Positions 1,814 to 58,263 of a stretch of DNA of 64,000 bases are shown here, piece after piece. The notes under the pieces were generated by a model. The model was not told the DNA's origin, searched no databases, and worked only from the letters and a program-made list of their open reading frames with translations. The DNA comes from Sipunculus nudus (lineage: Eukaryota > Annelida > Sipuncula > Golfingiida > Sipunculidae), in assembly GCA_026874595.1 (NCBI GenBank), contig CM049321.1, positions 13,099,479-13,163,478 on the forward strand, read 5' to 3'. The first letter of the stretch is position 1. Each line of letters opens with the position of its first letter. The position numbers and the translations under genes were made by a program.

Positions 1814-1900
1814 CAGTCCGGGATCAAAGTATGGAGCCGGTGCAGGGGGGTTGCTCGGCCACGCTGGCATCACAGTGTTGGGTGGGAAAAAAGGGTAGCT
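1814..1900 (-). CDS. LARP4: LARP4 exon: Pro-rich C-terminal piece
   Basis: Acceptor is a long T run ending TTTAG, donor CTG|GTGAGT; 87 nt, 29 codons, phase 0 at both ends. It encodes SYPFFPPNTVMPAWPSNPPA then PAPYFDPGL. In LARP4/4B the matching place has a Pro/aromatic stretch ending in a Tyr-(Phe/Leu)-(Asp/Glu)-Pro motif before a conserved Asn-Gly-Phe segment. That next segment was not found between 1 and 1813, so the gene continues beyond the left edge. No stop codon or polyadenylation signal can be assigned inside the window. Confidence 0.86.
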
Positions 1901-1963
1901 CTAAAAAAAAAAAAAAAACAAATATAACATCATGAAAATGATCCATACAAGGTCCAATCAATA

Positions 1964-2038
1964 TTCATGATGGTTCTATTAAAATTTATTATGGTCCTAT
2001 TAATATTCATGATGGTTCTATTAGTATTCATGAAGGCC
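1964..2038. repeat. 21-bp minisatellite, about 3.5 units
   Basis: Units of TTCATGATGGTTCTATTAAT plus one base start at 1964, 1985, 2006 and 2027. It is intronic, between the 1814-1900 and 2521-2685 exons. Confidence 0.85.
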
Positions 2039-2303
2039 AAATGCTGCGAATGTTCTCTGAAACATACATACTTCATGTGACATAAAAATGCTATTTTTTT
2101 TATTATGAAAATATCTTTAAACTGCAGGTCAAGTATTTCTTTGCATTTTGTCAAATATCCTAAACTGCAATCCCTTAACATGCTGTCTCTTGTAATGCAT
2201 ATAAAACTGTGGAAAATACAGTTCTCTGGTTTCATATCATATAGTACTGGCATAGTTGAATGTCCAAACACTGCATAAAAAGCTCCAGTAACATGCATAC
2301 AAA

Positions 2304-2471
2304 TACAATGAAACCTGTTTAGTGAGACCACCTGTGGGACTGGCCAAAAGTGGTCTTAATGCACAAGTAGTCTTATTAGACAGGTCAGTTATAACCAATG
2401 TGAATGGTTTTTGTTCACTCAAAGGTGGTCTTAATAGACAGGTGGTCTCATAAGACAGGTTCCTCTGTGTA
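2304..2471. mobile_element. Short TA-flanked MITE (pogo/Tc1-like termini)
   Basis: Terminal inverted repeats of about 33 bp share AACCTGT-T-TGAGACCACCTGT. Interior blocks GTGGTCTTAATGCACAAG and GTCAGTTATAACCAATGTGA recur at 45783-45948 and, more diverged, at 17020-17163. Size is about 165 bp. Terminal TA suggests Tc1/mariner/pogo transposase mobilisation. It lies 50 bp from the donor of the 2521-2685 exon. Confidence 0.8.
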
Positions 2472-2520
2472 ATTTAAAACTGAAAAACTGAGCAAGGTCA
2501 GAGGTCATGGTTGGGCTTAC

Positions 2521-2685
2521 CTGTTGTCCTCCATTAACGTACTGGACCTGTTGTACTTGGGGGTAGGCTGGAAACCTCTGCTGTGTCTGGGTGACTGTCA
2601 CAGACATGTTGGGATCATACGCCTGTTTTACCCCATTCTTTGGAACAAATGTACTCCTAACCAATGGCTTAGCCTTGATCCTGGC
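2521..2685 (-). CDS. LARP4: LARP4 exon: RRM end and start of C-terminal region
   Basis: Acceptor TTTTTATGTAG, donor CAACAG|GTAAGC; 165 nt, 55 codons, phase 0 at both ends. It begins ARIKAKPLVRSTFVPKNGVK, directly continuing GRPIM of the previous exon. (M/K)ARIKAK...TF.PKNG is the conserved end of the LARP4B RRM and what follows it. The rest is Gln/Pro/Val-rich (TQTQQRFPAYPQVQQVQYVN, GGQQ), like the low-complexity stretch after the RRM in this family. The polypyrimidine tract before the acceptor is a run of T. Confidence 0.94.
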
Positions 2686-3517
2686 CTACATAAAAAAAAA
2701 AAAACAGTCATTTGGTAAAGCTGAGACTGCTGACAAGCTATTAAGATTTCAACAAAATACATGAAATGTATCATTCAAACATTTGAGGTAAATCATATTT
2801 TATAAGTGGACCTGAAGAAGTAAACTTGACCTAACTTGAATCTATACATCTTCCATATGACTCACAAAATATTTTCTACCAAATTGCCATCCCTATTTTT
2901 CAATTTTTTTTTGTGAATAAGCACAAAGCCCTCAATATTATTGTTTTTTTTATCTATATCTTTGGTGGAGGTGACCAATTTTTTTTTAAAGCTTGCTTAA
3001 CTATGTTCTATATACATCTGGCCAGTTCTATTCTGGTTTCGGACTACATGACAGGAGCTTTTCACTTGATTATCCTAGCTCTTCCATCCCCATTGCTGTG
3101 TCATAACACTGAGGAACCCCCGAAAGGCGCACTAATTTGTGAGTGAAACAAGACTGTTGGGTACAGTCTCCCCAGAGCGCTCACCCTCTGTGAGCTCTCA
3201 AATTTGACAGAGCAGTTTGCGATGTCAAAGCTCTTCATCACGTATGGGCCCCTAATCTATTTTAACTTTTAATTTATTCGCTGGTGGACCACTCTACTTG
3301 CATGGAAATGTATATGGCAGCAACAAAAAGGAGGAGAACTACATTTTTCTTTTATTTGCACAAATTTACAAACATCCATTTAGGTAAAATTACTTTCAAT
3401 TTTTTAAATGTGAAATTGACTACTTAAGTAAGAATTTAATTAAAGGTAAAGAATCCATAACTGAATCGATTCTAATGGCCCTAACAATTCACAGGTCTAC
3501 ATGATAGTATGACATAC
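2686..3517 (-). other. Intron after the RRM exon
   Basis: 832-nt intron. It contains the dispersed repeat at 3236-3505; the remainder is AT-rich with T-runs, and nothing else is seen. Confidence 0.8.
3236..3505. repeat. Dispersed repeat, copy 1 (other copy 38880-39300)
   Basis: The segments share GGCAGACCACTC-like, TACATTTTTCTTTTATTTG and GATTGATTCTAA-GGC-CT-A-AATTCAC blocks in the same order and orientation with the copy near 39 kb. This copy stops about 12 nt from the donor of the RRM exon. No termini or duplications were identified, so the element class is unknown. Confidence 0.7.
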
Positions 3518-3682
3518 CATAATCGGTCTTCCGAGGAAGGTGCGGACCTCTTCCCGCAGGTACTGATACGCCTTCTGGGCGTCTTCGTCTGAGTCAAACG
3601 TGACATACCAACTGTTATTGTGAGCGAACTCACAGCTGATGAACGGAGGACACCTCTCTCCAGAAAACAACTTCTGTACATC
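3518..3682 (-). CDS. LARP4: LARP4 exon: RRM-like domain
   Basis: Acceptor TTGTTTTGCAG, donor ATG|GTATGT; 165 nt, 55 codons, phase 0 at both ends. It encodes [20 protein letters not shown], then [35 protein letters not shown]. CEFAHNxxWYxTFxSDxDAQxA is the RNP1-like part of the LARP4 RRM, and YLREEVxTFxGxPI is a family hallmark. No indels relative to the expected LARP4 domain are seen. A dispersed repeat (3236-3505) ends only about 12 nt beyond the donor, so the first intron nucleotides are the only unique sequence on that side. Confidence 0.97.
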
Positions 3683-3953
3683 CTGCAAAACAACAAGATT
3701 ACATTGTATGAACACCTCACACCAGTGGGCTATTTAAAATATCAACTGTTTGTCTCTACTGTGGGGGGAGAAGGGTGGTGCAAGATAAGTGTGGTTGCCT
3801 TTTGTTAAATTTCACAAGATAGTTGTAACACATACACTATTTGCAAATCTATGTATGGTCATCAAGTGAGTCTACCCAGGCCATGATGAGGTATATTTAT
3901 AATGGAAGTACAATTTTTACAATTATAGGCACTCTGATCTTTAAATGGGGTAC

Positions 3954-4057
3954 CTCAACTGGTGTAGACTCCGGCACCTCTCGTAAAATGACAATGCAGC
4001 GTTTGTGAAGCGGCCTGACTTTTTCGCCTTTTTCATCAACTTGCACATAGGAAGATT
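3954..4057 (-). CDS. LARP4: LARP4 exon: La motif/RRM junction
   Basis: Acceptor CTTATCTTTGTAG, donor GAG|GTACCC; 104 nt, phase 1 in, phase 0 out. It encodes (E)[15 protein letters not shown] then [31 protein letters not shown] and CIVILRE.PE.TP are LARP4/4B signatures; CIVILRE is the first strand (RNP2-like) of the RRM-like domain. The donor is weak, with C at +4 and +5, but the protein continues exactly at the next exon (STPVE then DVQKLF), as in the family. The intron to the next exon is only 271 nt. Confidence 0.95.
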
Positions 4058-5156
4058 CTACAAAGATAAGACATGAGTTGACACACAATTTTGTTATCAA
4101 TCAAAAAAGGGAGGCTTCAAACAAAATTTTTTTGTAAATATGTATATCAAACCATTCATAACACAATTCCAGCCCCTTCCACTAGCAAATATAAATAAAC
4201 ACACATTTTAAATCCCTCTGTGTAGGTAAGAGTACAAAGATAAAATCAGGGACCGTGCACGACATGAGATACTATATTTATTATATATTATATACTTACG
4301 TTAATTATTTTTTGTCTATTCTTATTAACTATTAACTGGCTAATGATTATATCCAAATTTGACAAACATTTATCGAGCACAGCAAAGGCCAGGTGTGCCC
4401 CCGCACACAATAATGGTACACACCCAAGAAGCAACAGGTCACTACGTCATGAACCAAACTGACCCAAAGTGTGAAAAAGTTGTGATTTCCTGTCACTGAA
4501 CTGTACATTAACAGCAGTCATCCACGTCCTTTTTATAACAAGCCAGACTGCAGAATCAGACACGCCAGCAACAGATGAGGCCCGATCAATGATTAGTCCG
4601 TGCACAATACACGACTGCTAAAAGCACTCTCCATGCAGACAGACCCTATATGCCCTTAGTGGTCAACAGCAAGGACAGTCACACTGCGCACGGAATGACA
4701 ACGTCCTGCTATTAGTAATTACTGATGAACTTGGCCAGCTATGATGAGTGGCTCAGGTAACAATCACCAGTGTTGTCATGGCAACACAGGGAAATACAAT
4801 AATAATTCACTGAACCTTAGTGGAAGCTGTCATGGAGTCAGGTGGCAATGACCTCCTGGAATAGTTACAACAGCTGTGAAACAATACATCGCTAAACACA
4901 ATTTTATATTTATTTATGGTTAAGACCATGAACTGCAGACGGCGCTAAAATTTTTAATTATGAAGATAATAGGATGACTGCTATGAAGGATATATTTTTT
5001 TAATTTCTGTTGGACTGACCAAGACTTTCAGGTCTTATTCAAGGCCTATATTGATGTAAATGATAAATGTTTATCAGTCGGTAATCTTAAAATTATAAAA
5101 AAAAAAACTGACTCTCTTTAAATCTAGATGATTATCCCATCACTAAAGCAAACCAT

Positions 5157-5245
5157 ACTGTGATTGTATTTTTGTTCGCAAGGGTTTCGAATTGTGATAG
5201 GAAAATTATCGCGATAATAAAACCTTTGAATAAAACAATAAAAAC
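5157..5245. mobile_element. Fragment of the 21.2-kb MITE family
   Basis: TACTGTGATTGTATTTTTGT, TCGCAAGGGTTTCGAATTGT and ATTATCGCGATAA correspond to one terminus of the 21151-21579 element. The other terminus is absent. A weaker match is at 5990-6065. Confidence 0.6.
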
Positions 5246-5619
5246 AAAACCCGTGAATAAGGAGCCCTATCGCTGAAGACATGTCGAAAAGCAAAATTGA
5301 TATTATGAAAAATGAATGATCTAAATGTTACTGTTCATCTATGAAAGCTATTATAAATAATCACATCTTTGAAATTATCCCTCAACCATTAGGGTTTCTA
5401 CTTGTTCAATATTCACTTGGGGTTCTCATCCAAATTTTACTATTTTGCGTATATATTATTTAAATATGGCTAATTCATCAAATGATTGATATCTCTGTGA
5501 AGATATTGTTTGGTGAGATCGCAAAATGTGAACACATGCGAATCAGTCAAAAGGCGAAAATCACCAAATATAAACCGGACCCCAGTTTCCTGTCAAGGAC
5601 ACTGGAAGCTAGAGATAAC

Positions 5620-5830
5620 TGTATAACAATGACGACCATATTCAGAATTACACAGTTCAAAACTAATCGTGAGGCTGGCTTTTTAATTTTGTTGTATATA
5701 AAGAATGGGTCTGTGGCCTGTTTGTGGCACTGTCTATTGAATGAGGATGAAGGTGTCCATATGATAGGACTGACATTTTATTATTAAACCTTTTGGATTT
5801 CAGGTTTTATGTGTACAGGGTTAAGGAAAA
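5620..5830. repeat. Repeat family with GGCACTGTCT core
   Basis: TTTGTGGCACTGTCTATTGA, ATGAGGATGAAG and AAACC-TT-GATTTCAGGTTT blocks are shared with 19300-19350 and 42600-42700. At 42663-42696 the end becomes a perfect 13-bp hairpin (ATTAAACCTGAAA and complement, 8-nt loop). Confidence 0.5.
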
Positions 5831-5882
5831 TCCAGAAGTCATAACCTGTCATTAAGACATTAAAGCGAATCTCTGAGGTGCT

Positions 5883-6000
5883 TTAAAGAGATTTCAACAT
5901 TGTGCCTTTGAGGCACTGGCGGGGTTCAAACCGGGGACCTTCAGCTACAAAGTCCAGTGCCTTAACCACTAGGCTTGGTCTTACCCAGGCTGGCTTTTTA
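5883..6000 (-). mobile_element. tRNA-derived SINE head
   Basis: On the minus strand, CCTAGTGGTTAAGGCACTGG (A-box-like) is followed about 30 nt later by GGTTTGAACCC (B-box-like), the internal RNA polymerase III promoter layout of a tRNA. The stem and anticodon regions do not pair well enough for a functional tRNA. A shadow frame PSLVVKALDFVAEGPRFEPR is the usual translation of such SINE heads. Confidence 0.75.
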
Positions 6001-7016
6001 TTTACAAGGGTTTCAGATTTGCATCTTTTTGCAAAAGGGAAATTACCATGAATATTAAACTTTAGTGAATATGACGCCTCATTCACACAGGCAAACAGCC
6101 TCAATAGGGTCTCAGGTATAATATGTGTATAATATGTATGATATGTCAGTGTCAATATTGATATATTTTTATGTTGGCTGTAAATCAGAGACTGATATCC
6201 TTAAATTGTACCATATTTTTTATACATCAGACACTATTTAAAAAAAAATTTCCACTTAGGTTGCACATAAAATTGTTAAGATTTTGCGTGTATTGATATA
6301 ATCATGGTTACTGGTATTTAAACTGTCAAGTTAAGTAAATTATGATCGTGAATTTTATAACTCTTGCAAAACATTGTTGAAGAAGAGCCTTATAAAATTG
6401 GGAAAATTTAACACCGCTAATATGAAGTCAACCACAATACATCAGTGTTAGGGATGTTAACCCTTTTTTTCCAATTAAGGGATGGAGCCATAGCATGCCT
6501 TTGGACAAACTAGTAGTAAATCAGAATTGTAATAGTGAGATTATATAAATATCATATAACCTTGTGGATTTCCATTTGAAAATGAGGGAACCATTATTGA
6601 TATTGTTGATTTAGAAGGCTTGATACTCCAAAGGTTCATCTGTCCCCTCTTGAGGAGAATTTTTACAATCTCAATGGAATGAAACATTTTATTTCTTTTT
6701 AGTAAAACATAAATTCACAATTTAAAGTAATACTTTTCTATATTAAGGAAAACATTTTAAAATTTGAAACTGGGTTTGACTTCACATACACTTTAATTAC
6801 ATGTCACAATTGTTTTTATTTTTGGATGTCACAGATCTTGATAAATACTGGTTCATAACCACTTAATCATGCTGTGGTGAATATTTCAATAACCACAACA
6901 TGCTATTGACGTTCCATTCATTACTACACAGCTTTTCACCATATCCCCCGCCACTGCGAGCCCATCTGCATACTTAACCATATGTCACCATATGAAGGAC
7001 CTGATCGTGTGTAATG

Positions 7017-14912: not shown

Positions 14913-15049
14913 CTCTGAGCACCTGTACGACCAACTCTAAACTACTGGTCAGCTTTTTAACCTGGTTGAAATTGGCAATGGTTGAGATCAGGACATACTG
15001 GTCGGCGTCCATTTGGGAGATCAGGTATGAATCGTTGGCCAGGTTTTCT
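14913..15049 (-). CDS. LARP4: LARP4 exon: La motif core
   Basis: Acceptor TTTTTCTGCAG, donor AGAG|GTGAGT; 137 nt, phase 2 in, phase 1 out. It encodes [20 protein letters not shown] followed by [13 protein letters not shown] and ends LVVQVLR. This is the diagnostic core of the La motif: RENLxxDxYLISQMDxDQ is strongly conserved in LARP4/4B, and the VKKLT...VLR helix closes the winged helix. With the preceding exon it makes a complete La motif of normal length. A 27-bp minisatellite lies about 210 bp upstream in the intron and does not touch the acceptor. No missing residues or frame breaks are seen. Confidence 0.96.
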
Positions 15050-19825: not shown

Positions 19826-19910
19826 CTTGAGAAGTAGTACTCCAGCTGAGTCCGTAACATCCCTCGCAGCTGGTTGTCAGGTACATTTCCTTCCAGTGGA
19901 ACTGTTTCAT
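19826..19910 (-). CDS. LARP4: LARP4 exon: start of La motif
   Basis: Acceptor TTATTTTCAG, donor TCAAG|GTCAGT; 85 nt, entering in phase 1 and leaving in phase 2. It encodes DETVPLEGNV, then the first helix of the La motif, LRGMLRTQLEYYFSR. The La motif is a winged-helix RNA-binding fold; the QLEYYFS segment contains conserved Gln and aromatic residues that contact RNA 3' ends in La proteins. Vertebrate LARP4 has a non-aromatic residue at one of these positions (as I recall, FCFS), whereas this gene keeps the canonical YYF. It joins the 14913-15049 exon through a split Arg codon to give FSRENL. Confidence 0.93.
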
Positions 19911-20469
19911 CTGAAAATAAAAAGAGAAACATTCCATGTCTTACTGTGGGAACGGTCCATAAATATAAGTAAATTTTACCTGTTACTGCAAGAACATCCG
20001 ATATACAACTGTACCTGTTTCTGTATGAACATCAGATGTGTAGGCCTATCTGTTAATGTGTGAACATTGGATGAGTAGGCCTAATTGTTACTGTGTGAAC
20101 ATCGGATGAGTAGGCCTAATTGTTACTGTGTGAACATTGGATGAGTAGGCCTAATTGTTACTGTGTGAACATCAGTTGTGTAAGCATACGTGTTACTGCG
20201 TGAACATCAGTTGTGTAAGCATACGTGTTACTGCGTGAACATCAGATGTGTAGGCATACCTATTACTGTGTGAACACTGGATGTGTAGACATACTTGTTA
20301 CTGTGTGAACATCAGATGTGTAGGCCTACCTGTTACTGTGTGAACATCAGATGTGTAGGCCTACCTGTTACTGTGTGAACATCAGATGTGTAGGCCTACC
20401 TGTTACTGTGTGAACATCAGATGTGTAGGCCTACCTGTTACTGTGTGAACATCAGATGTGTAGGCCTAC
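19911..20469 (-). other. Intron made almost wholly of the 35-bp array
   Basis: A 559-nt intron of which about 490 nt (19981-20469) is the minisatellite that begins inside the upstream exon; only about 70 nt before the acceptor is unique. Confidence 0.9.
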
Positions 20470-20505
20470 CTGTTACTGTGTGAACATCAGATGTGTAGGC
20501 CGTAT
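19981..20505 (-). repeat. 35-bp minisatellite spanning the linker-exon 5' splice site
   Basis: Fifteen units in exact 35-bp register from 19981 to 20505. The unit nearest the exon (20471-20505) is coding; the rest are intronic. Units next to the exon are near identical, while those toward 19981 diverge, as expected if homogenisation is focused near the exon. Each standard unit carries AACAG|GTAGGC and the palindrome GTAGGCCTAC. The length is not a multiple of 3, so use of another unit's donor would shift frame or meet a TAA. Confidence 0.97.
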
Positions 20506-20628
20506 CATCGGCTGTGCTGCCATTGGCGGAGGACACGCCCTGGGATGGTGTAGGGGACTCGGGGGTTGGCGGGAATGTCACCCCCGGGGGGTCTTTACCC
20601 CCTACATCACCATTCATAAATACATGAC
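20470..20628 (-). CDS. LARP4: LARP4 linker exon, Pro/Ser/Thr-rich
   Basis: It lies between acceptor TTTTATTTTCAG and donor AACAG|GTAGGC: 159 nt, entering and leaving in phase 1. It encodes GHVFMNGDVGGKDPPG, then a Pro/Ser/Thr stretch (TFPPTPESPTPSQG) and an acidic end (TADDTAYTSDVHTVT). It bridges the PAM2 motif and the La motif, a region that is disordered and poorly conserved in this family. The last 11 or so codons lie in the first unit of a 35-bp tandem array that continues into the intron, so this exon end and its donor arose from, or seeded, the repeat. If the next unit's donor were used, 35 nt including an in-frame TAA would be added. Phase agreement on both sides supports the call; the sequence itself is not diagnostic. 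Confidence 0.82.
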
Positions 20629-27119: not shown

Positions 27120-27725
27120 ATCCAGGTAGATCCGTGGTGATCCGGGGTGTTTTTTTGAAGAAATTACCATTTCACACAGCAGCACTATGGTAGAGCCCCG
27201 GATCGTCCCAAGAATCATATCGGTAGCACCCCGGAAATGCACTGCTAATAACCCCTGTACAGCAATGGATAGCCCCGGACCACCATGGCAGCACCCCAGA
27301 TTACCCCGAAGTGTCCCGGCAGAGCCCCAAATCGTCCTGACAGAGCCCTGGACTGTCCTGGCAACGCCCTGGACTGTCCCGGTATAGCCCCGGACCGTCC
27401 CCGCAGAGCCCCAGATAGAGGCCTGGCTCCGCCGTGTTGGTCCGTCGCTCTGCCAGGGAAAGTTCGGGTGGTTTTTTAACGTCCCGGACCTCCAATGACT
27501 GTCACGGCCTGCCCTGGACTTCCACGGCAGTGGCACGGACACCAACAGCATAGCCCCATCAGAGCTACAGAAACCTGGATCACCACGGATTACATTCCGC
27601 CACGGATCTCCACGAATCGCCCCAGCAGTTTTTGACATACAAAAACTCATGGCTTGCCCTCCTGGACCATTCCGGCAGCCTTACGGCTTACACCCCAGAC
27701 CTATCCGTGGCACTGCCGTAGCTCT
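27120..27725. repeat. GC-rich degenerate 21-bp satellite
   Basis: A GC-rich island in AT-rich intron built of degenerate 21-bp units such as CAGAGCCCTGGACTGTCCTG plus one base; the clearest run is about 27315-27420. The multiple-of-3 period leaves long frames open on both strands (184 codons on minus, with recurrent Gly-Thr-Val-Gln-Gly and Arg-Thr-Ile-Trp-Gly). No splice signals, start context or family match support a gene. Confidence 0.8.
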
Positions 27726-29340: not shown

Positions 29341-29347
29341 CGGCGTA

Positions 29348-30434: not shown

Positions 30435-33067
30435 CAAGGGACCTATGGGTCACGACGCTCAGCTGTTATATATGATAAAAAAATATTATTTAGAAATGAG
30501 GCACATGCTGGTTTTGTGTGGTAATAAATATAAGCTGTATTATGAGTTGTTGTTTAGCTAATGTATGATTTTGATAGTACCTTTGGAGACAGGGAAGAGG
30601 ATTGATTTCATTTATTTTATTAACAAATGGAGTACTACTGTCACACAGATTTTGACTTGGCCATATAACTTATAAGCAGAACATATAATATAAGAGTTTA
30701 ACTATTTATTAAAAAAATTACAAATATTGTCCCAAATATAATTTTTATTAAAAATAATAAGAGAATCATATGATTTTTTAAAATGAAATATAACTGATAT
30801 GATTATTAAAATAATATTAAAGAATATATTCATGAATGCATTCATGAATACATTTTGAAAGTATTTGCACGAGTATTCATATACTTTCATTTTTACCTGA
30901 ATTCCCATTCTTTATGCAAGAAATTTTATAATGGAGTACATAATCATATTCGTATTTAAATACAATTACAAAGTATTCGCACCATGTCTGGTATTTATTC
31001 AGTTTTCACCAAACAATGATGTTAAGAATCCTGAATATACAAAATTCACACATTTAAATAATGATCATAAGTACCTGGTTTTATGGCTTTTATTTATATT
31101 AAAAAATAACTGTAAAAAATTCATTTTGGACTAATTTCACATCAATGTACACACTAGACACAGTAGGAATCTAGATTAATATTATCAACTGCATCTTTGT
31201 TAATCATTAATTTCCTTCATATAATCCTTAATGATTAGTAATGAATAATATGATTTACTTCTTTATCATTAAAAATGAACTGAAAAATGCCATAGGTGAC
31301 TGCATGGTGTTATTCTGAATATGTGACATTCTACTCATCGATACAAGATTCTTATATCATCAGTAACTGCAAGTTAATTTCCTGTTATTATAAACTAACA
31401 AATTCCTTTTCTATTTTTCTTTAATTTGTTATTTAAAACCAATAAAAATTTATTAATTTATTGTTTATTGTTATGTTGTTGGTTAAAACTACTAGATGAG
31501 TTGGGTTGAACACCTGGATCAACTGTGGCTGGCCATAAGCTGCCTGGATTCTCCCCTCAAGCGTGCATAATTTGATGAAAGGTCAACAAGGTCAACATAC
31601 AGGTGACTCAAGAGGGGCTGGAGAGAGCCAAAGTCTGACAGGGTCTCATAAAAAACATTAATAAAAGCTACGATATTTGGCAAATTTCTTTTAGCTTTCT
31701 AAACTAAAAAGCTGAAATCCTTATGTGTGCATGATATGAAAATTATATCAACAGTGCTCACGGGAAACAAACGTGCCATGGTCACAGTTGGGCAAAATTT
31801 AAGGTACTCATTTTATATTTATACTAATAACTTATAAAATTTGAAAAATTCAGAACTAATTTTGGGTATTCAATTGAATCTTGATTAAATAATGTTACAT
31901 CCCTGACAAAAAAGATCTCTAGCTTCAGCAATGCCCTTGTTAAGGGAGTAAATATATTTCTTGATTTTTTACAAAGTGCATTATGTTTGGGCCCATAACT
32001 TAAAAAAAATACACAATACTGACATCATTTCTGGCATGTGCATAGTGAATGTATAGAAAAATATGTATATTATATATGATCAAAGTCAGATCAGTGGTTT
32101 TGATATTAGGCAGTCTTAAAGTGTAACATTGGGTTTTTAATGGAAAAATGAAGTTTTTCATTGATATCTTGAAGGAATTAAGTCCTAGTGACCAAATTCT
32201 TGGCATGGTAGGGGATTTTGGAGAAATCTAACTGTATGCCAAATTTAAGGAACTTAGAGCTGAAGCTCGGGAGCTGAGCTCTAGCAAACTGCATAACACT
32301 AGCAATATGTGACATGGTGCTTGAAAACTTGAATAAAATCTACAGTTTTTGATCAACTGGTTTCAAATTTTCGGTGTTAACAGTTGAAATGCTAACAAAA
32401 ACATGCTGTGAAAATTAAATCCACAGCAGTTACAGCAAAAAAACGTGCCATGGTCAAAGTTGGGCAAAATTTAAGGTACCAATTTTTTATTTTTGCTAAT
32501 ATTTTTAAAAATTTAAAAGATTTTGATCTAATTTTGGGTATACAATTAAATTTTGATTAATAAAAGTAATATTACTGGAAAAAAGTGCTTAGCTTTAACA
32601 AGTTTTGTGTTAAGTGATAAAATTTCTTTCCTGATTATTTACAAAATGCATTATGTTTGGGCCCATAACTTTTTTAAATTAAATAATACAGACCTAATTT
32701 CTGGCATGTACATAGGAATTATATAGAGGATTATTTATAGCAAATATGAGGAAAAACAGATGAGTGGTTTTGATATTAGGCAGTCCTAAAGTGTGAAAAT
32801 AGTTTTTTAATAAAAAATTGAGGTTTTTTCTTAATTTCTCAAAGGAATGAAGTCGCAAAGACCCAGTTTTAGGCTTGGTAGGAGATCTTGGGGACATCTA
32901 ACATTATGCTGAATTTTGGATTCCTAGGTCTTACGGTTTCAAAACGTGCCACATCTACGGACGGACGGACGGACGGACGGACGGACAGACGGACGGACAG
33001 ACGGACGGACGACGGACAATGGACCACGACTATAGCTCAGATGACTTATAGTCAGCTGAGCTAAAAA
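30435..33067. mobile_element. 2.6-kb non-autonomous element with internal 673-bp duplication
   Basis: Begins CAAGGGACCTATGGGTCACG, ACGCTCAGCTG and ends GACTTATAGTCAGCTGAGCT, AAAAAA. It contains two ~673-bp direct copies (ACGTGCCATGGTCA-AGTTGG at 31770 and 32443; GGGCCCATAACTT at 31989 and 32660). A GGAC tetranucleotide tract lies at 32958-33018. The same ends bound the 61.1-kb element. Frames of up to 81 codons carry no recognised domain. Confidence 0.75.
32958..33018. repeat. (GGAC)n tetranucleotide tract
   Basis: An almost pure ACGG/ACAG tetranucleotide run near the right end of the 2.6-kb element. Similar tracts occupy the same place in the elements at 33640, 41495, 54550, 55590 and 62590. 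Confidence 0.9.
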
Positions 33068-36000
33068 ACAGAAATTGTAGGTGGCGCCCCCAAACTCGTG
33101 CAGCAGTTACAGACCATCAGTCCCTATGATCATAGTAATTATTGTGAAAATCCACCCAATGGTTCCTGAGAAATAAGCTTCTAAATTTTTTTTCTATAAT
33201 CATCTCTAAAAAGTAGAAAAATAAGTCAAGGTCACCCATCTTCGAACTTGACCGAGATTTTGTCAATATACATCTTAACCGAAAAATAAAATTCCTACGG
33301 TGAATCCTTTTAGAGATATCCCGCTCACAAGCCCAAAGTTGAAAAATCTGATAAAAATTCATTAAGAATCAGAAATTGTAGGTGGCGCCACAAAACTTGT
33401 GTAGCAAGTACAGACTATCAGTCCCAATAATCATAGTAAGTTTTGTGAAAATCAACCAAATGGTTACTGAGTAATAAGCATCTAAGTGTTTTTCTATAAT
33501 CAGCTCTAAAATGTAGAAAAAGAGGTCAAGGTCACCCATCTTCAAACTTGACCGAGATTTTGTCGATATACATCTTTACCAAGGAAATACAATTCTGACA
33601 GTGAATCCTTTTCAAGATATCCCGCTCACAAGGTAAAAGTTAAGGACGCCGGACGGACGGACAGCTTGGGTGACGACAATAGCCCATCAGCCTAAGGGCT
33701 GAGGGCTCTAAAAAATTAATGTTACACATGTAATACAAAGGTACATTGACATCGAAATTATACTTAATAATCTAGAGATTTTCATTATGTAATTTTATTA
33801 CACATCTTACATCACTTGTACTAATACTTTTATATACAGACTGGCACTCTACCGATATACTATGACAACACTAACAAATGCCCGGTGCCCTAGGGGACGC
33901 ACATAAAAGATATGAATAAAAAAAAATATTGCAGAGTAAGTCAGAAATCAATTTTTCAGATAGGCAGGTAGATAATTGGCTTGAAATTTAAAAAAAAAAC
34001 TCTACTCCTAACATTATATACCAATCAGGTAACCCCCCCAAAAAATTCGAAACTATATCCAGGACACCCATCAATCTTGATTTAATACAATAGTGCACTT
34101 GTAACTGAGATCAACTGTGGAAAATTAATTTGTTTGTGTCAACATGAGACAAATGTGGCTTGCTATTCAATTACTTGAACAGATGCACATGTGTGCATTA
34201 ATTAGAAATTACCATGGTTAATCCATAATATTTAGATTGCTGTACACTTTTACAGGTCACGGCTCCATTTTTATGGCCTCTGGTTTGTCATGTCATCCAG
34301 GTTCGGTGATTTTGCGGATTAATAGTACACATATACAGTAATCAAGCTGAAATTCAAAACTCTTTAATGTTGACCATGACATGTTACACAGACAAATCAG
34401 ACAATCAACATCAATAGTCAAAACTTAACCTGGATTATAAGTGCTGTTTATTTAAATGGATTATAATTTTTTTTATTATTCTAGTTTGCTGAGCAACTTA
34501 GAAAGTGATATATATTAAGCCAAACATACTCACCAAAAACTTATACTTTATTTTTGCGGATAAATGTGTAAACAAGTCCTCAGTGGTGATGATATTTGGT
34601 GTTCCTGTTATGATTTCTTCAGAGTATTCACTCTGGTATTAAGTATCAAGAAACATTTTCAAAATTTAAATGAAAAGGAAGTTAAAAATTATTTCTCTTA
34701 ATTGTCAGAGCTTCGCACAAATTATTAATTTTTTTGGTTTGGCCTGAATCAAAATATTTATAAATACAAAAACATTACGTAGTAATTTATTACTTCAGAG
34801 AATATATATGACTTCTAAAATAAACATTTTAAATTAACAATGCAACCTTTCCTATTTATATTCAGTAATTTAACCTCGATATATAAACTTAAGTTAACTG
34901 GCTATGAGAAAAAATTTGGAAAACTTCACGGGTCTGAAACAAGCAAGCTGGGTTTGGTTATATTATGACACCATCATTTCCTTCTAAAATCAGGGGTATT
35001 TTTGGTAAAATCACCACACCTGTTTTAACAAAAGCCTGGGCTACTTTACAGTGCCAACTCTATTTGTACTTTTATTAAAAATCAATGACACAAACACAGC
35101 TGTGCCATTGATTGAACATGTCCAACAATAACAATTCCCATGCCAAAGCAGACCCAGCCATTCATAAATCCTACAGACATAAAGTCGTATTATTCTGCTG
35201 ATGTCTGGATATATATGTGCTGCTAGTTTTTTTCCCCGTCTATCGGTATTCAACAATTCTGCAGCCCGTATAGCTGGGTGCTGATCATAGTTAATTCCTC
35301 TCTATAATAACTGAAAATGACATTTTCACAACAAAACAAAGATAAATTATTCTATTTCAAAGGCATAGTTCCTCCATGTTCAAGGTGAATGAATTTGCCA
35401 TAGGTTATGTTACTGGTTTCATAGAAACGTTCTTATGATCGTCTTGTCTGAGCGGTGTCGAGTGCAGACATTTGCAAACTATGTCGTCTCACCAAAATAG
35501 ATATGTATGCTGAACACAACTTAAAAACCACTAATACCAACAACATATGATAACACACAGCTTTCCTGCTTTGAGTCATGTGACAGGTTATATACAAATT
35601 ATCTACAGATAGCATCTTAGTTTCTTTATGGATGGAAAAATGAGATGCAGCGAACTGTCTAGCAGCACGCAAGTGTAACTCGGTGCAAAGAAATTAGTGA
35701 TCAAAATGCTAGGAGGCCTGCAAGGTTGGGGCCATGAATGTTACTTTAAAGCAGGAAGCCCAAGCCCAGTTTTTCTTATTTATAAACTAAAATTCAGTAT
35801 TTCAGGCTGGTCATTCCAGACAGGTCTATGGTATGTTTTGTCTATTGCATCTGAAATTTTGAGAATTTTCTATTTCAGTGGGCATGATCTTGTACCTGAA
35901 GTTTATCCCAATGGCATGAAATGTCTGCTCATATGTCAGAGAGGCATTATTTGTCATACTCAAAAACACACAGAAAATCTCAATAAGGATACAAGTTTTC

Positions 36001-36358
36001 CTTATTTTATTTTAAACCATCACCAATAGCTTAAAGTATGGTTCATTTTTCATTTAAACCAGGTCAACTGTTAAATGTGGTTAAAGTTAACTTTCTGACA
36101 ATACTGTTCATCCACTGTGTGCCAAAAGACTGTTACAACCCTGCATGTTTGTTGAATTTCCCAGTGCAAAGAAGCAGGTCTCTGTTGGATTAGTAAAGTG
36201 ACTGCTAAGTCATGCAAGGCACAGGAAATGACACCAGTTACTATGGAGATGGGATTAAAATTTGTATATTCACACTCACACTATATTCATCTGTGTGAAT
36301 TCCTCACTCCTGGTCTAATGATTTGCATCAAGACTAAGTAGACCCTTTCTGTCTGAAG

Positions 36359-37015
36359 GAAGTGTGTTGTCTGTTGGAGGGGGCGTGGTGTACTAAAAAT
36401 CCAAAGGAAGTATGCTGTCTGTGGGAGGGGACGTGGTGTACTCACCATCTGAAGGAAGTGTGTTGTCTGTGGGAGGAGATGTGGTGTACTCACCATCTGA
36501 AGGAAGTGTGTTGTCTGTTGGAGGGGGCGTGGTGTACTAAAAATCCAAAGGAAGTATGCTGTCTGTGGGAGGGGACGCGGTGTACTCACCATCTGAAGGA
36601 AGTGTGTTGTCTGTGGGAGGAGATGTGGTGTACTCACCATCTGAAGGAAGTGTGTTGTCTGTGGGAGGAGATGTGGTGTACTCACCATCTGAAGGAAGTG
36701 TGTTGTCTGTGGGAGGAGATGTGGTGTACTCACCATCTGAAGGAAGTGTGTTGTCTGTTGGAGGGGGCGTGGTGTACTAAAAATCCAAAGGAAGTATGCT
36801 GTCTGTGGGAGGGGACGCGGTGTACTCACCATCTGAAGGAAGTGTGTTGTCTGTGGGAGGAGATGTGGTGTACTCACCATCTGAAGGAAGTGTGTTGTCT
36901 GTGGGAGGAGATGTGGTGTACTCACCATCTGAAGGAAGTGTGTTGTCTGTGGGAGGAGATGTGGTGTACTCACCATCTGAAGGAAGTGTGTTGTCTGTGG
37001 GAGGGGGCGTGGTGT
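36359..37015 (-). repeat. 48-bp minisatellite spanning the PAM2-exon 5' splice site
   Basis: Thirteen complete 48-bp units (starts 36359, 36407 ... 36935) plus a partial unit at 36983 that is exonic. Because 48 is divisible by 3, both strands stay open over hundreds of bases. Read in the LARP4 frame a standard unit encodes EYTTSPPTDNTLPSDG and contains the donor GATG|GTGAGT. Three variant units (36359, 36503, 36743) have lost the donor and carry an in-frame TAG inside GGATTTTTAG. Blocks 36503-36742 and 36743-36982 are identical over 240 bp, showing recent block duplication. Confidence 0.97.
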
Positions 37016-37118
37016 CCCCACTCCGGGGCCAGTCCCCTGGGTCTGAGGTAGGTGTTGTCGGGCTCTTACTCTGAAAGACATTGGCGTTGGGGTTCAGGCT
37101 CTGACCCTTGGGCGTGAC
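36974..37118 (-). CDS. LARP4: LARP4 exon with PAM2 (PABP-binding) motif
   Basis: This exon carries the PAM2 motif through which LARP4 proteins bind the MLLE domain of cytoplasmic poly(A)-binding protein to stabilise mRNA and promote translation. It starts after the acceptor CTTTGTAG in phase 0 and reads VTPKGQSLNPNANVFQSK; the core LNPNANVFQ is a clear PAM2. Vertebrate LARP4/4B have Trp at the position that is Phe here. A Pro/Thr/Asp-rich tail ending DNTLPSDG follows. The first available donor is GATG|GTGAGT, giving 145 nt and ending in phase 1, which fits the next exon exactly (Gly from G+GT). The donor lies in the first full unit of a 48-bp array; later units offer identical in-frame donors, so the true 3' end could vary by multiples of 16 codons. 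Confidence 0.87.
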
Positions 37119-40560: not shown

Positions 40561-41555
40561 AAAACTAGATGTGTCGGAACGACACTAATGCCCCCGCCTG
40601 GGGCAAATTAGAAACATTTGTTAAATTTTGAAAAAAATTTTAAGTTCAGGAGTCATATGGTCAAACGTAGGTCAACAAGGGCAAAATGCAAACTCGATCT
40701 GTTACAGGTCCTTATCAAGCAACACACCAAAAATCATGCTAGTATCTGTAGGGACAGTGAAAAAAAGTCCATACATGTGCATTTTCCAGAAAATTTCTGT
40801 CTTTCATGAAATTTTCTATGTTTAGGAGCCGTAAAACAATCAAAAGTAGGTCAACCGGGATGAAACGTGAACTCGTTCTGTAACTGTCATTATCTGCCGA
40901 CACATAAAAAATCAGGCCGGTATCTGCAGGCATTGCGAAAAAAAGTCCGTACATGTGCACTTTTTTATGAAATTTTCTATGTTAGAGCACCATCAAACGG
41001 TCAAAAGTAGGTAAACTGGGACAAAACATGAACTCGATCTGTAACTGGTCATTATCTGCCTACACACCAAAAATCAGGCGAATATCTGCAGGCATTGCCA
41101 AAAAAAATCTGTACATATGTATTTGTCATGAAAATTAATATTTTTCATGAAATTTTCTAAGTTAAGGAGCCGTAAAACGGTCAAAAGTAGGTCAACTGGG
41201 AAGAAATGTGAACTCCATCTGTAACTTGTCATTATCTGCCTACACACCAAAAATCAGACCAATATCTGCAGGCATTGCGAAAAAAAGTCTGTACATATGT
41301 ATTTCCCATGAAAATAATATTTTTCATGAAATTTTCTAAGTTAAGGAGCCGTAAAACGGTCAAAAGTAGGTCTACTGGGACGAAACGCGAACTCGATCTG
41401 TAACTGGTCATTACCTCCCCACACACCAAAAATCAGGCCAATATCTGCAGGCATTGCGAAAAAAAGTCCGTACAACTGTTTTATTTCGGAAGGATGGAAG
41501 GACGGACATGGGTAAAACTATATGCCCTGGCCACTTTGTGGAGGGGGCATAAAAA
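40561..41555. mobile_element. Pearl/Helitron-like element with ~180-bp tandem core, copy 1
   Basis: The left end is AACTAGATGTGTCGGAACGA; it includes the perfect hairpin GTGTCG-GAA-CGACAC and then ATGCCCCCGCC at 40588. The right end is GGAGGGGGCAT at 41540-41550. The body holds about five diverged 170-180 bp units, each with AAAAGTAGGTCAAC-GGG, CATTATCTGCC and AAAAAAAGTCCGTACA. A GGACGGA tract precedes the right end. It has no coding capacity. Confidence 0.8.

Positions 41556-46775: not shown

Positions 46776-46778
<3 letters not shown>

Positions 46779-46852
<74 letters not shown>
46779..46852. repeat. (AT)37 microsatellite
   Basis: An uninterrupted 74-bp AT dinucleotide run. Tyr-Ile repeat frames on the minus strand are artefacts of it. 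Confidence 0.99.
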
Positions 46853-46855
<3 letters not shown>

Positions 46856-51100: not shown

Positions 51101-52669
51101 ATCTGAGGCACTAAAAGTACTCAAAGATTAGTTTGTTTTAATCTCTCTCTCTCTCTCAATAAGTGTGCTATATATACTCCAGCAATTAACTCTCCCATTC
51201 AGTATCTAGAAATGCTGTAATTATCTGTACCTGCATGATTTTTTTTTTTTAAGTTCAGCTTAAGTCAGTGGAGACACCTGGTGTGTGCTATGTGAACAAA
51301 TACAGTTTATATATAGCAGTGAGGAAAATATTGATCAACACCAGCATATATATTGTCAGGCTTGGTTTACAAAACTTCATTGAACATCTCCTGGTCATCT
51401 GAAATTTGGAGAATTAAGGATTGAACGTTGTGAATTAAGGAACTAATTGTAAATATACAAATCTAGAGGTCTTTCTCCTGTTTTTGTTTCTGCTGACAAT
51501 TAGTACTTACATACAGTATAAGCCTGTTTTCATTTTCATCTTCATTTTCTTTTTTATATATTAAGCCCCATATTGTGTTCTCATACTAACTTGGAAGATT
51601 TTAGTAAGCCTGCAGGATATACTCAATTTGTTCTCCTCTGGAAAATATCAGTGTCCACTGAATAATAGGATCTAATATAAGATGAATACCCTGATATTTT
51701 TTAATGAACTCAACGTAAGTTGTGATGTTGTGCCTCATACATACAGGTACATTCTTGCAACTGCTACAATATTTCTTGAAATAAACAGACTAATAAATAG
51801 TGAAACTTACTGTACAGCTTAATTTTCTTAATTAAAAAAAAATAAAATTTTTGATACGTACTTAGCAATACACTCCTGAACTGAACTTCAATGTGTCGAT
51901 AGTTATTTGTCTCAGGTTCAACTGGCAGAACCAGCTTTCACTCCCTATTTTTATATTTAACCTAAATAAACTGCACTTATGGGAGTATTTACTTGAATAC
52001 AGTTGCTTCAGGCAAATATGAATTCTCTTTAGATGTTAAGTACAGCCCAGACATCTTCACACATACATGCACACATTGCTGCACAATAAACAAATCAACC
52101 AATTATGAAACACACAAGTACTTCACTTAATTTGTTTAAACTTATCCATCTTTTAGAGGAGGTAATAATTACTAATTAGATGATCATTTTCATCTATAAT
52201 ACTTGACAAAGAAGGTACGGTGTTGGTTTTCATATAAATAATGCAGTACCCCATTCACTGACTATCACTGGTGCCATGTGCCATGTAATTTTTAATTAAG
52301 ACATATCATTGTCACTAAAGAAATATATACATATCCTAACATATATAGGTACCACTTGGCTGAAAACAGTTACCATTAACCTGAAGCACATGGTAGCCAC
52401 AACATTAAATTCACAAAACACATGTTACTTCACTCTCTCTTGTTTTGCACAATTATTTCTTACCAATGATATTGATAATCTATGAAATACTTAACATAAA
52501 ACTGGCTTTTCTCTCTTATAACTCTCCACAATCATTACTGTGGTCTGACAAGTCTTTCAAAGGGCATAGTCATCATTCCGCCTATTACTTTTTTTACAGT
52601 GCTTACACAGTAACATCTAATCAAGATTTTCATATTTGTGTGTGATAAATAGTTGTCACTGTATCCAGT

Positions 52670-53580
52670 GGGGTTACAAAGGGTACCAGTACACGAGCAT
52701 AATTTTGGCTCAATAGGTCAAACGGCTCCAGAGATATGAGCTTGGATGTCTGCAGAGTAAACATGAATGTAGGTGGCGCCACCTTTCATAAAATCAAGAG
52801 AGCTGTCCAGGATGTATAAACCTGCAAAATTTCAGATGGATAAGTCAAACCACTTCTGAGATAAGAGTGATTTTATCCCAAGGCAGATGAACAGATGGAC
52901 GCTGTGCATAAGTGGTTGCAGGTGCATCACCAGTTTTGCCTATGATGAAGAGCTATGTGAGATCTATACACACGCAAAATTTTGGCCTAATCGGTCAAAC
53001 TGTTCCCGAGATATGAGCTTGGATGTCTGCAGAGTACCCTTTTTCAATTGGCTACAATGCTTTTTTAAAGCTGCATTTAATCAATCTATTCTTATAAAAA
53101 TGACAGAACCCTACCATGGAATAATTCTTTTAAAGTTTAAACCAATCAGCTTAACAGTTTCATCATAAATCAGTGTATAAGCTAGAAGAGTTTTTAAAAA
53201 AATTACGTTTTCGCTTGTAAATAACACATCAATGTAGGTGGCGCCACCAGTACCTCAATTTCAGATATGACATATGTGACAAACATTGGTATAAAATTTG
53301 GTGATTATAGCTCTAGCAGTTTCTGAGATTTTAATTTTTGTGTGCTTTTTTGGACAGATGACTAAGTTCAACCTCCTGTAACTTGGCCAAAAATCTCTGA
53401 ACTGGAACCATTCGAACAAACTTGAGAGAGATTGTTCCAGGGATCATTTCTGTGAAATATTGGACAATTTGGCTGGACAGTTTCGGAGCAAAGATTTTTA
53501 AAGCTTTTTTAGCTTTCCCTACAAAATCTATGAAAATGCAGTTAGAAAAAAAAATAAAATCCGATAGAGTTATTCAGATG
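52670..53580. mobile_element. Non-autonomous element with AGGTGGCGCCACC modules
   Basis: Carries the modules seen at 61380-61810 and, inverted, at 63300-64000: GTCAAACGGCTCCAGAGATA, TGAGCTTGGATGTCTGCAGA, GTAGGTGGCGCCACC, AGCTGTCCAGGATGTATAAA. Its boundaries are not defined. The pearl-like element begins directly after it. Confidence 0.6.
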
Positions 53581-53595
53581 ACAGATTATTTGCAA

Positions 53596-55653
53596 AACTA
53601 GATGTGTCGGTACGACACGAATGCCCCCGCCTGGGGCAAATTAGAAACATTTGTTAAATTTTGTAAAATTTTTTTAAGTTCAGGAGGTGTTGTATGGTCA
53701 AAAGTAGGTCAAGAAGGGCAAAATGCAAACTCGATCTGTAACGGGTCATTATCAAGGAACACACCAAAAATCAGGCCAGTATGCAGGCACTGTGAAAAAA
53801 AGTCCATACATGTGCATTTTTCATAAAAATTTCTCTTTCATGAAATTTTCTATATTCAGGATCTGTCATATGGTCAAAAATAGGTTAACTGGGATGAAAC
53901 GCGAACTTGACCTTTAAGTGGTCATTATGCGCCTACAGACTAAACATTGGGCCAGTATCTGTAAGCATTGTATTGCGAAACTAGAATATTAGCAAAAGCT
54001 GGTAATCAGTTATAAATTTAAATTGGAGAGGTATGTACCATGTTTTATAACAATCCACCAAATGCTTCCTGAGAAATATCCCCCTAAGTTTTTTTTCTAT
54101 ACTAAGCTCTGTGACCTTGAAGAGTAGATGAAGACCACCCATCTTTGAACCTGACAAAGATTTTGTAAATATGATGCAAAAGCACTGAAGTAATGAAGTT
54201 CCTTAGTTGAATACCTTTGGAGATATCCTGCACAAAGGGCAAAATTGAAAATCCGATAAAATTTCATTAAAAAATCAGAAATTGCAGGTGACGCCACCAA
54301 AATTGTGCAGAACGTACAGACCATCAGTCCCAATGATCATAGTAAGTTTTGTGAAAATCCACACAATGGTTCCTGAGATATAAGCTTCTGAGTGTTTTTC
54401 TATAATCAGCTCTAAAATGTAGAAAAATGGGTCAAGGTCACCCATCTTCGAACTTGACTGAGATTTTATCGATATACATCTTCACTGATGAAATAAAATT
54501 CCAACGGTGAATCCTTTTAGAGATATCCCGCTCACAAGGTAAAAGTTAACAGACGCGGAACAGACAGACGGACGGACGGACATCGACAGACAGATGGACG
54601 GATAGACGGACAGCTTGTGTAACGACAATAGCCCATCAGCCTATGAGCTGAGGGCTAAAAACGGCTGTACATGTACATTTGTCATCAAAATTAATTTTCA
54701 TGAAATTTTCTATTTTTAGGAGCTGTAAAACAATCAAAAGTAGGTAAACCGGGACGAAACGCGAACTTGAACTGTAACTGGTCATTATCTGCATACACAC
54801 CAAAAATCAGGCCAATATCTGCAAGCATTGTAAAAAAAAGTCCGTACAGGTGTATTTGTCATGAAAATTTCTATTTTTCATGAAATTTTCTAAGTTTAGG
54901 AGCCGTAAAACAGTCAAAAGTAGGTCAACCGGGACAAAACGCGAACTCGATCTGTAACTGGTCATTATCTGCCCACACACCAAAAATCAGGCCAATATCT
55001 GCAGGCATTGCGAAAAAAAGTCCGTACATGTGTATTTGTCATGAAAATTTCTATTTTTCATGAAATTTTCTAAGTTTAGGAGCTGTAAAACAGTCAAAAG
55101 TAGGTCAACCGGGACAAAACGCGAACTCGATCTGTAACTGGTCATTATCTGCCCACACACCAAAAATCAGGCCAATATCTGCAGGCATTGCGAAAAAAAG
55201 TCCGTACATGTGTATTTGTCATGAAAATTTCTATTTTTCATGAAATTTTCTAAGTTTAGGAGCCGTAAAACAGTCAAAAGTAGGTCAACTGGGACGAAAC
55301 GCGAACCCGATCTGTAACTGGTCATTATCTGCCCACACACCAAAAATCAGGCCAATATCTGCAGGCATTGCGAAAAAAAGTCCGTACATGTGTATTTGTC
55401 ATGAAAATTTCTATTTTTCATGAAATTTTCTAAGTTTAGGAGCCGTAAAACAGTCAAAAGTAGGTCAACCGGGACGAAACGCGAACTCGATCTGTAACTG
55501 GTCATTATCTGCCCACACACAAAAAATCAGGCCAATATCTGCAGGCATTGCGAAAAAAAGTCCGTACAACTGTTTTATTTCGGAAGGACGGAAGGACGGA
55601 ATGACGGACATGGGTAAACTTATATGCCCCGGCCACTTTGTGGCGGGGGCATA
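53596..55653. mobile_element. Pearl/Helitron-like element with ~180-bp tandem core, copy 2
   Basis: The same ends as the 40.6-kb copy, here perfect: hairpin GTGTCG-GTA-CGACAC at 53604-53618, ATGCCCCCGCC at 53621 and GGCGGGGGCAT at 55642-55652. There are about seven core units; those from 54840 on are almost identical at exactly 180-bp spacing. A 680-bp element of another family (53981-54658) is nested in the third unit. Confidence 0.85.
53981..54658. mobile_element. Element of the GGTCAAGGTCACCCATCTT family nested in the pearl-like copy
   Basis: Interrupts a 180-bp unit between GCATTGTATTGCGAAA and AAAACGGCTGTACATG. It shares GAGAGGTATGTACCATG, GGTCAAGGTCACCCATCTT, GATATCC-GCTCACAAGG and the end AGCCCATCAGCCTATGAGCT with 30057-33712. 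GGACGGACGGAC tracts lie near the right end. Confidence 0.8.
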
Positions 55654-56642
55654 AAAATTAGTGATGCTAGCTTCTGCCGTTTTTGAGATAGCTATGGTTA
55701 ACGTACAGATGACGCATGACGCCGCACCATCGCATAAGCTCACAGGTTCACTAAAAATACCGTTAGACGAATTTTGTATATTAGAATGCAGTTCTAAAAA
55801 TTAAAAGTGACTGATTTAGCAAAAATGAATTTACAAGTAATTATGAGACCAAAATCCTGAAACTTTTGTAAAAATGTTTCACTTGTTTACCAAATGATCC
55901 CCCTTTTGCTGTGCACTGTGATCAGTGTAATCTCTGACACTGACAGTGTTCAAAATTTTTAAGCCCCAAAGGCCCCTGGCCTGTATTTTTTTAACTGAGG
56001 CCTGTATTTTGTAAAGAAGCAGGCAGGCAGAGTATAATCCATCCCTCATGCCACATCCTTTGTCTAACAACCTTAAACAATGTTAATCAAAGATGATTTG
56101 AATAATTCTTTTTAGAATGACACAAATTTTAAATCATGTCTTTTTGTATTTTTATAATCAATATATTATGAGGGGCTATGCCAAGAATTTCAATACAGGT
56201 TTTCTTTACTGAGCTGACTTTTGCTGTAGCAACTTCCATCTTTAATTTGCCGATGAGGACACGGTCATTCTGCGAGTGTTTGTTTGGTTTCCACTTAGAA
56301 GATACAATCTAATTGTCATCAAACTCTCCGCAGATAAATATCCACCATGAGACTGACCTCTGGGTACTTTCCGGTCTTATTTCAGTGTATTTATTAAACC
56401 CTGACCTCACACAAATCTCAAAACCACTCATGGGGGCTGCCATATTGTGCACTAACTAAAAAGTGGATGTCTCAAGTTACATGTCGTAATTAAGAAATAC
56501 TGATGAAGCTAACAGTAAATAAAAAACTTAATAATATGATCATTAGAATCATCTTACATTGTTAAGTTACGTAGCCTGCTGTTGGTTTCATATCAACAGT
56601 AAAGCAGCCAATGGTCTACAAGCATAATCCAAGCCAGAATCA

Positions 56643-57036
56643 TACCCCTTTCACACATTAAAACATGCTCAATGTGGATTGGTCAAATTGGTTTCAAATC
56701 GTATTGTGCGTTCACACAGGCATCAGGCACAAATACATGAGGTGTACATTTCACATGTGGATCAACGTGACAACATGCTGACAAGAGCATTCACGCACGT
56801 GCTGTGATTCAGCTGCTGCTTCAAAACTTGGTCTAAATTGTTTTGAATGGGCATTAAGCATTCACACAGCACAATAATTTGATTTGCACTGGAAACGGTT
56901 TGAAATCACCTCCTATTATGGATTTAAATCATTTTAGCCAAATCTGTGTGAGAACGCTTTGGATTGCGGTGTTATTGCTCAATTCTAATTCAAAACAGTG
57001 TAAAAACATTTTGCATTTGCAGTGTTAAAAGGGGCA
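56643..57036. mobile_element. 390-bp MITE with CCCCTTT termini
   Basis: TACCCCTTTCACACATTAAA at the left and GTGTTAAAAGGGGCA at the right form imperfect inverted ends. The interior has repeated CAAA-CGTTTTG motifs. An inverted, end-less copy is at 37850-38165. Confidence 0.65.
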
Positions 57037-57095
57037 TCATTGTACCAACCAAAGGTACAATATTTCAAAACACTTCAAATGTTTCAAATAATTAA

Positions 57096-57970
57096 CAGGG
57101 ATGTGCCCACGCCGGGCGGGTGCGCCTGGCAGTCTTTCCTGCCGCCCGGCACTTGACTGGAAAGTGTCAATGCCCACCCAGCAGTAATATTTTTAAATTG
57201 TTTAAGCAATGAACAAAATTACACGCGTTTAAGCTTATCTCTATTTTTACCCGTATTACAATTAGTGACCCCTGTCAAATAAATCTAAGTGCTAGTCTTC
57301 CACACTAGATGACATCCAGTGGCGCCCAAAATGAATATTTAATAGAAGGTACTCTTCAAAATGGGCCGTATTAAGTGAATGTTGATGAATAAAATTTGGT
57401 ACGAAAGAAGTGAACGTAGCTGCTATGGTAGCGCCTCCTTGTATCTGTATAAAAGACTAATGCTGATATCAGCTTCTATGAAATCATATGATGCGCCAAA
57501 CGATAATTGATTGAATATAATTGATGATCGCTATATATATTTGGATACATTTGTAAGGTCACAGTTCCTATTGAGGCCAAACTGCCGAAGAAAAGTGGAA
57601 TATGATGTTTGGTATCAGGTTTTAAGTGCGAAAAACTGAATACAGTCCTTTCTTATACCCATATTATATGGTAGTATTCAGCAAATCCTGACCGACAGAA
57701 TCTGAACTGACAGATGAGTTCACCACGGTGTTTTAACTTTGACAATCAAATTTGCTCTCAGTGGCGGCATTGCTGTCGGCATATTGAAAATTAATAATAT
57801 TTTTTAGTATTACTAATGATTTATTCATTCAGCTGAAATATCACGAATCACGTCTATAAAAAATGAAAGGTTAACTTTAAATATCCCGTGCCCCCCCCCC
57901 CCCCCCCATTTCACGAAATACGTTCACGGCCCGCCCGCCCGGCACTCAAATTATTCTGAGCACATCCCTG
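57096..57970. mobile_element. 875-bp hAT-like non-autonomous element
   Basis: CAGGGATGTGCCCA at the left and TGAGCACATCCCTG at the right are 14-bp inverted repeats with one mismatch, followed inward by GCCGGGCGGG and its complement. The flanks TAATTAA and TAATTTA resemble a 7-8 bp target duplication. A C-run lies at 57892-57907. No transposase is present. Confidence 0.75.
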
Positions 57971-58173
57971 TAATTTATGATCATTCCTAGAACAAACTGC
58001 AAAGTCAAAAAAATTTCTACATATTTTTCCTACAGTACTTTGACAGGTGACCTGTGTTGGACTGTCACAGATGCTCTCACGTTTCGTTATATTACGATAA
58101 ATTTCTTAGCACATCCATATCACATTCTAAAATTAGGAAGCCTGTGTAAAAAGCAAGATGGCAGCATACGTAC

Positions 58174-58263
58174 CGGAGCAGTGTCAAGTGTCTCAGCCCC
58201 CCCGGTGTTTCCCCGGTCTGACGTCATCAGGGCAGCTGAGTGCGGCTCCACGATCACCACAAT
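58174..58263 (-). CDS. LARP4: LARP4 coding exon upstream of the PAM2 exon (N-terminal piece)
   Basis: Ninety bases, 30 codons, phase 0 at both ends. On the minus strand the exon follows the acceptor GTGTTTTACAG and ends at the donor CCG|GTACGT. It reads IVVIVEPHSA, continues through an internal Met-Thr-Ser-Asp and ends LDTAP. Its phase-0 end joins the phase-0 start of the PAM2 exon 21 kb downstream. Vertebrate LARP4B proteins begin with Met-Thr-Ser-Asp, so the internal ATG could be a start codon; this is a weak, memory-based resemblance. The acceptor side is copied several times upstream (58264-58383). It carries no recognisable domain, so membership of the gene rests on strand, phase, open frame and good splice sites. 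Confidence 0.68.

Follow-up and report, generated by a model that had tools for sequence, protein, structure and literature searches.

Three splice junctions of a LARP4/LARP4B-type gene of Sipunculus nudus, one of them inferred, lie within tandem arrays

Examination of a LARP4/LARP4B-type gene of Sipunculus nudus in the window (the whole stretch of 64,000 nucleotides analysed here) revealed TRF arrays overlapping the donor of exon 2, the donor of exon 3 and the inferred acceptor of exon 1, which bears out the claim of a preliminary description that three junctions of this nine-exon gene lie inside tandem arrays. As that description had also proposed, the unit of each array copies the splice signal, comprising an exon edge together with that signal, and the extra copies extend into the intron; such a unit is seen directly in arrays 1 and 2, and in array 3 by way of the putative acceptor. 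We consider it likely that these are three separate minisatellites that arose by ordinary growth and were tolerated where new copies are spliced out.

The gene lies on the minus strand of the window, where nine exons, with normal splice signals at their edges, join in phase to give a product of 367 residues with no stops (Table 1). By sequence similarity it is of the LARP4/LARP4B type. Residues 132–302 of the product match the La module of human LARP4 (6i9b) with an E value of 1.5e-68 and represent a La module of the LARP4 type. A Pfam scan of the 367-residue product returned the La domain (PF05383) at 76.5 bits (cut-off 37.1) and no other family, the RRM being absent from the listing; exons 6 and 7 presumably encode the RRM part of the La module. 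The top protein matches are LARP4 proteins, the nearest named among the matches listed being those of Liolophura (a chiton) and Lingula (a brachiopod). The best identity among listed matches covering at least 94% of the query is 57%, and the highest among all listed matches is 72%, over less than half of the query. Against 17 aligned relatives the product shows 50 to 63% identity. The protein start MTSD is common to the product and 15 of these relatives at that place, and residues K22, L26–A30 and F33 of an N-terminal PAM2w-like motif are invariant across the 18 aligned rows; the LNPNANVF motif of exon 2 is what we take to be PAM2w. At the exon edges the resemblance to relatives is fair for exon 1 and weak for exons 2 and 3, which fall in variable linkers. 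The gene should continue past the window, beyond exon 9. A further array, of four 21-bp copies at 1951–2033, lies some 50 bp ahead of the acceptor of exon 9, near this junction and not across it.

Table 1. Exons and junction-spanning arrays of the LARP4/LARP4B-type gene (window coordinates)
Feature	Position	Strand	Description and basis
Exon 1	58174..58263	-	Coding start MTSD at 58227; 5' edge inferred; in-phase model and pre-methionine residues like those of relatives
Exon 2	36974..37118	-	LNPNANVF motif; last 42 bases within array 2; in-phase model and alignment of relatives
Exon 3	20470..20628	-	Last 32 bases within array 1; in-phase model
Exon 4	19826..19910	-	Start of La module; model and 6i9b match
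Exon 5	14913..15049	-	La domain; model, 6i9b match and Pfam
Exon 6	3954..4057	-	La module; model and 6i9b match
Exon 7	3518..3682	-	La module; model and 6i9b match
Exon 8	2521..2685	-	In-phase model and alignment of relatives
Exon 9	1814..1900	-	In-phase model and alignment of relatives
Array 1	20012..20501	-	TRF 35 bp x 14.0; unit = 32 exonic bases + GTA
Array 2	36352..37015	-	TRF 48 bp x 13.8; unit = 42 exonic bases + GTGAGT donor
Array 3	58253..58375	-	TRF 42 bp x 2.8, 76% matches; unit = T-rich tract + ACAG acceptor + first ~11-14 exonic bases

The anatomy of the arrays, their register and phase, the relations among their copies and the coding consequence of each donor can be read directly from the letters. 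In array 1 the first copy supplies the 32 exonic bases that end at the exon 3 donor (20470). Copies 0–4 are identical, and the divergence from the exon copy grows with distance along copies 1–13 (Spearman 0.65, P 0.016), a pattern suggesting that the youngest part of this array adjoins exon 3; against this trend, just 2 of 35 bases differ in copy 13, close to the far end. The five CAG/GTAGGC donors nearest exon 3 are identical, with equal computed U1 pairing (−10.7 kcal/mol), and the donors farther away are weaker. In the computed coding outcome any donor past the first leads to the same stop at codon 129, whatever the copy number. The idea of "spare" splice sites put forward in the preliminary description therefore fails for the 35-bp array, since each later donor brings this stop; judged from the predicted reading frame, such donors would be ignored at best and would cost the message at worst.

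A different situation is found in array 2, whose first copy contributes 42 exonic bases to the exon 2 donor (36974). Its copies, seven of them identical, follow the order C-AAA-B, C-AAA-B, C-A-B and part of C; this order repeats in five-unit blocks and growth thus probably also took place in 240-bp steps. No gradient of divergence from the exon is seen (Spearman 0.10, P 0.75). The sequence ATG/GTGAGT is kept at 10 of the 14 register positions, six of these past the stop. Donors 0–3 are identical (U1 duplex −8.7 kcal/mol) and the reading frame is open at all four, the unit of 48 bp corresponding to 16 codons, so that splicing after copies 0, 1, 2 and 3 would add 0, 16, 32 and 48 residues (GEYTTSPPTDNTLPSD repeated); the computed frame closes at copy 5. 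The linker that would receive these residues joins the PAM2-like motif to the La module and varies in length among relatives. For this array the spare-donor proposal survives as a possible one, with 0 to 3 extra copies of the 16-residue repeat.

The position of the exon 1 acceptor (58263), which places 11 exonic bases inside array 3, is inferred from conservation. Acceptor-like TTACAG copies, with the AG ending at 58364, 58350 and 58308, are found upstream of the one at 58264. The residues S-A-A/T-L/P stand directly before the methionine in 8 of the 17 aligned relatives, and two relatives have IVV, as in the product, 12 residues away from the methionine of MTSD; nine relatives have neither, and seven of these begin at the methionine. 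Splicing to the upstream acceptors would lengthen the message ahead of exon 1 by 44, 86 or 100 bases and bring in further ATGs that are not in frame with MTSD. Should translation begin at MTSD, these bases would be leader only; should the conserved residues preceding the methionine be translated from a start farther upstream, such lengths would shift the frame. As a separate observation, the recurrence of SAAL (58228–58263) before the LARP4 start methionine in 8 of 17 relatives hints that an in-frame start lies upstream or that the leader is conserved.

The units of the three arrays appear by eye to be mutually unrelated, in line with the independence that had been attributed to them. When a second home of the units was sought within the window, the best matches elsewhere differed at 12 of 35, 20 of 48 and 10 of 32 bases; an origin from a dispersed repeat was rejected, since nothing close to a second copy occurs in the window. 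Viral contigs contained no match to exact patterns taken from the 35-bp and 48-bp units, and Rfam at gathering scores returned nothing for the whole window.

The window holds other repeats. Two arrays 13 kb apart (40802–41474 and 54667–55568) seemingly share one unit of ~180 bp (TTTCATGAAATTTTCTA...) and are perhaps a mobile satellite-like element. Tandem units of 301 and 337 bp (32957–33632 and 61815–62626) adjoin ACGG / GACGGACA microsatellites, an arrangement of long unit and microsatellite like that of bivalve "pearl"-type elements. A 280-bp unit repeated 2.4 times with 96% matches (63324–64000) reaches the window end, and a GC-rich (69%) array of 5.2 copies of 21 bp (27304–27412) is found in AT-rich surroundings within an open frame of 194 residues on the minus strand.

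To compare the arrays with the 18 boundaries of the gene, the 36 TRF rows of the window were merged by hand into 26 arrays. Among those with periods of 20–100, 3 of 11 overlap a boundary versus 0.39 expected (P 0.005), and stricter array classes give P values of 0.002 to 0.004. The value is 0.01 for periods of 10–100, 0.07 for periods of 10 and above, and 0.086 for all merged arrays (3 of 26 on boundaries, 1.05 expected). With exon 1 omitted, P is 0.04 to 0.07 in the minisatellite classes (0.057 for periods of 20–100) and 0.21 to 0.24 in the wide classes (0.24 for all arrays). A TRF-free test, based on a junction-spanning 24-mer repeated within 100 bp, was positive at 3 of 18 boundaries (P 0.005 to 0.009 depending on the threshold), the other 15 being at background like random places; the two donors alone among 17 boundaries give P 0.04 to 0.07. 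Taking GC-matched places as the null, P was 0.026 with the arrays retained, and with the arrays removed none of 200,000 simulations reached three, a null that is too generous. These P values are optimistic because the feature was chosen after being seen, and the excess of boundary arrays over window chance is modest and post hoc. All three arrays belong to the first three exons; from exon 4 to exon 9, which encode the La module onward, the 12 boundaries are at background.

Several other explanations can be weighed against these data. Junctions could be favoured birthplaces of minisatellites, where transcription- or replication-linked breaks seeded duplications three times in one gene; the 3 of 18 boundaries occupied versus about 0.4 expected would agree with this, as would the youth of array 1 at the exon. 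We regard such preferential birth as unlikely, however, given the post hoc pick (with P of 0.086 for all arrays and 0.057 for periods of 20–100 once the inferred acceptor is set aside), the lack of polarity in array 2 and the finding that just 1 of 226 LARP4-family proteins carries a tandem repeat on the N-terminal side of the La module, as a six-residue pair. These 226 proteins, no random sample, were the top entries listed among 492 and 2004 matches, and the count refers to coded repeats with units of 6–40 residues and at least 80% identity. It seems similarly improbable that junctions are seeded across the lineage to yield ladders of copied splice sites, in which the 48-bp in-frame ladder of LARP4 would provide tunable linker variants and the 35-bp ladder a copy-number-dependent brake through premature stops.

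Little weight is given to the possibility that the in-frame 48-bp array is a maintained device, its four equal donors yielding linkers of different length from the PAM2-like motif to the La module. The 16-codon unit, the four identical donors in open frame and the variable linker length of relatives agree with such a device, but the frame closes at copy 5, six of the ten donors kept lie beyond the stop and a recent expansion explains the identical copies equally well. That the introns were created when an exonic AGGT segment was duplicated in tandem is still harder to credit and appears very improbable. Of the 559 bases in intron 3, 458 belong to units of array 1, which do carry CAG/GTA; however, the acceptors of introns 2 and 3 (those of exons 3 and 4, which share the ending TTTTATTTTCAG) are placed outside the arrays, so that this model of intron gain does not fit, the repeated unit not supplying both splice sites, and intron 2 measures 16 kb.

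The reading that we prefer, minisatellites of ordinary growth tolerated at spliced-out places, would begin with a short segment spanning an exon edge and its splice signal that was duplicated in tandem by happenstance, three separate times. The functional copy would be the one touching the exon, the remaining copies being intronic and removed by splicing, and the arrays could grow and drift almost freely because the extra copies leave with the intron. Their copy number would shift by slippage or unequal exchange, as the five identical exon-edge copies of array 1 and the five-unit blocks of array 2 may reflect. In arrays 1 and 3 the additional copies would be mostly neutral or slightly harmful decoys, and protein-length variants could result from later donor use in array 2. 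We infer this mechanism of duplication, the near-neutrality of the copies and the donors actually used. This account, simpler than nucleation at junctions, lets duplications occur anywhere and be tolerated where they carry the splice site, and it needs no link with splicing or transcription. The places affected belong to the leader and to an N-terminal part that is loosely conserved, a placement that tolerance would be expected to give. A local or gene-linked bias may also exist, given that 3 of 18 boundaries is somewhat above window chance (P 0.002 to 0.09; 0.026 GC-matched).

Boundary-straddling repeats are of a kind already published and are not new; the present gene is a clear example, with three in a single gene, of repeats that seemingly expand in places where splicing conceals them. 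If junction-straddling arrays are common in the genome, they would form a natural series of identical splice sites in which to ask which one, among several equal donors, is chosen, and their copy number could be tied to expression. A literature search, made mostly on listings and covering subscription journals thinly, returned no gene with three arrays of this kind, of which two lie on donors and one of those two is in frame, and combining LARP4 with minisatellite gave no match on the subject (one paper, unrelated by its title). A minisatellite with multiple splice donors was reportedly described in 1995 and, to go by the title of that paper, its tandem units supply splice donors as those described here do.

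The closest parallel is the 31-bp VNTR of human CBS, c.1444_1467+7(16_21), whose name reads as 24 exonic and 7 intronic bases in 16 to 21 copies (PMC2630376). In both systems the unit joins the last exonic and the first intronic bases (24 + 7 in CBS; 32 + 3 and 42 + 6 here) and many copies lie across one donor; unlike the single CBS array, which is known to vary in people, three arrays are found here in one gene, with one unit a multiple of three. In human segmental duplications, internal tandem repeats at exon-intron boundaries with an average unit of 30 bp are reported to alter splicing, with 27 intron modifications (PMC2812944). These are likewise minisatellites at exon-intron boundaries, but they concern human paralogues, for which novel introns are reported, whereas no sign of new introns is seen in the gene studied here. 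Intron gain by tandem duplication is introduced in PMC4974935, which cites a repeated 24-bp segment of fission yeasts with introns across it; as in that model, tandem copies carry splice signals, and unlike in it the acceptors here lie outside arrays 1 and 2.
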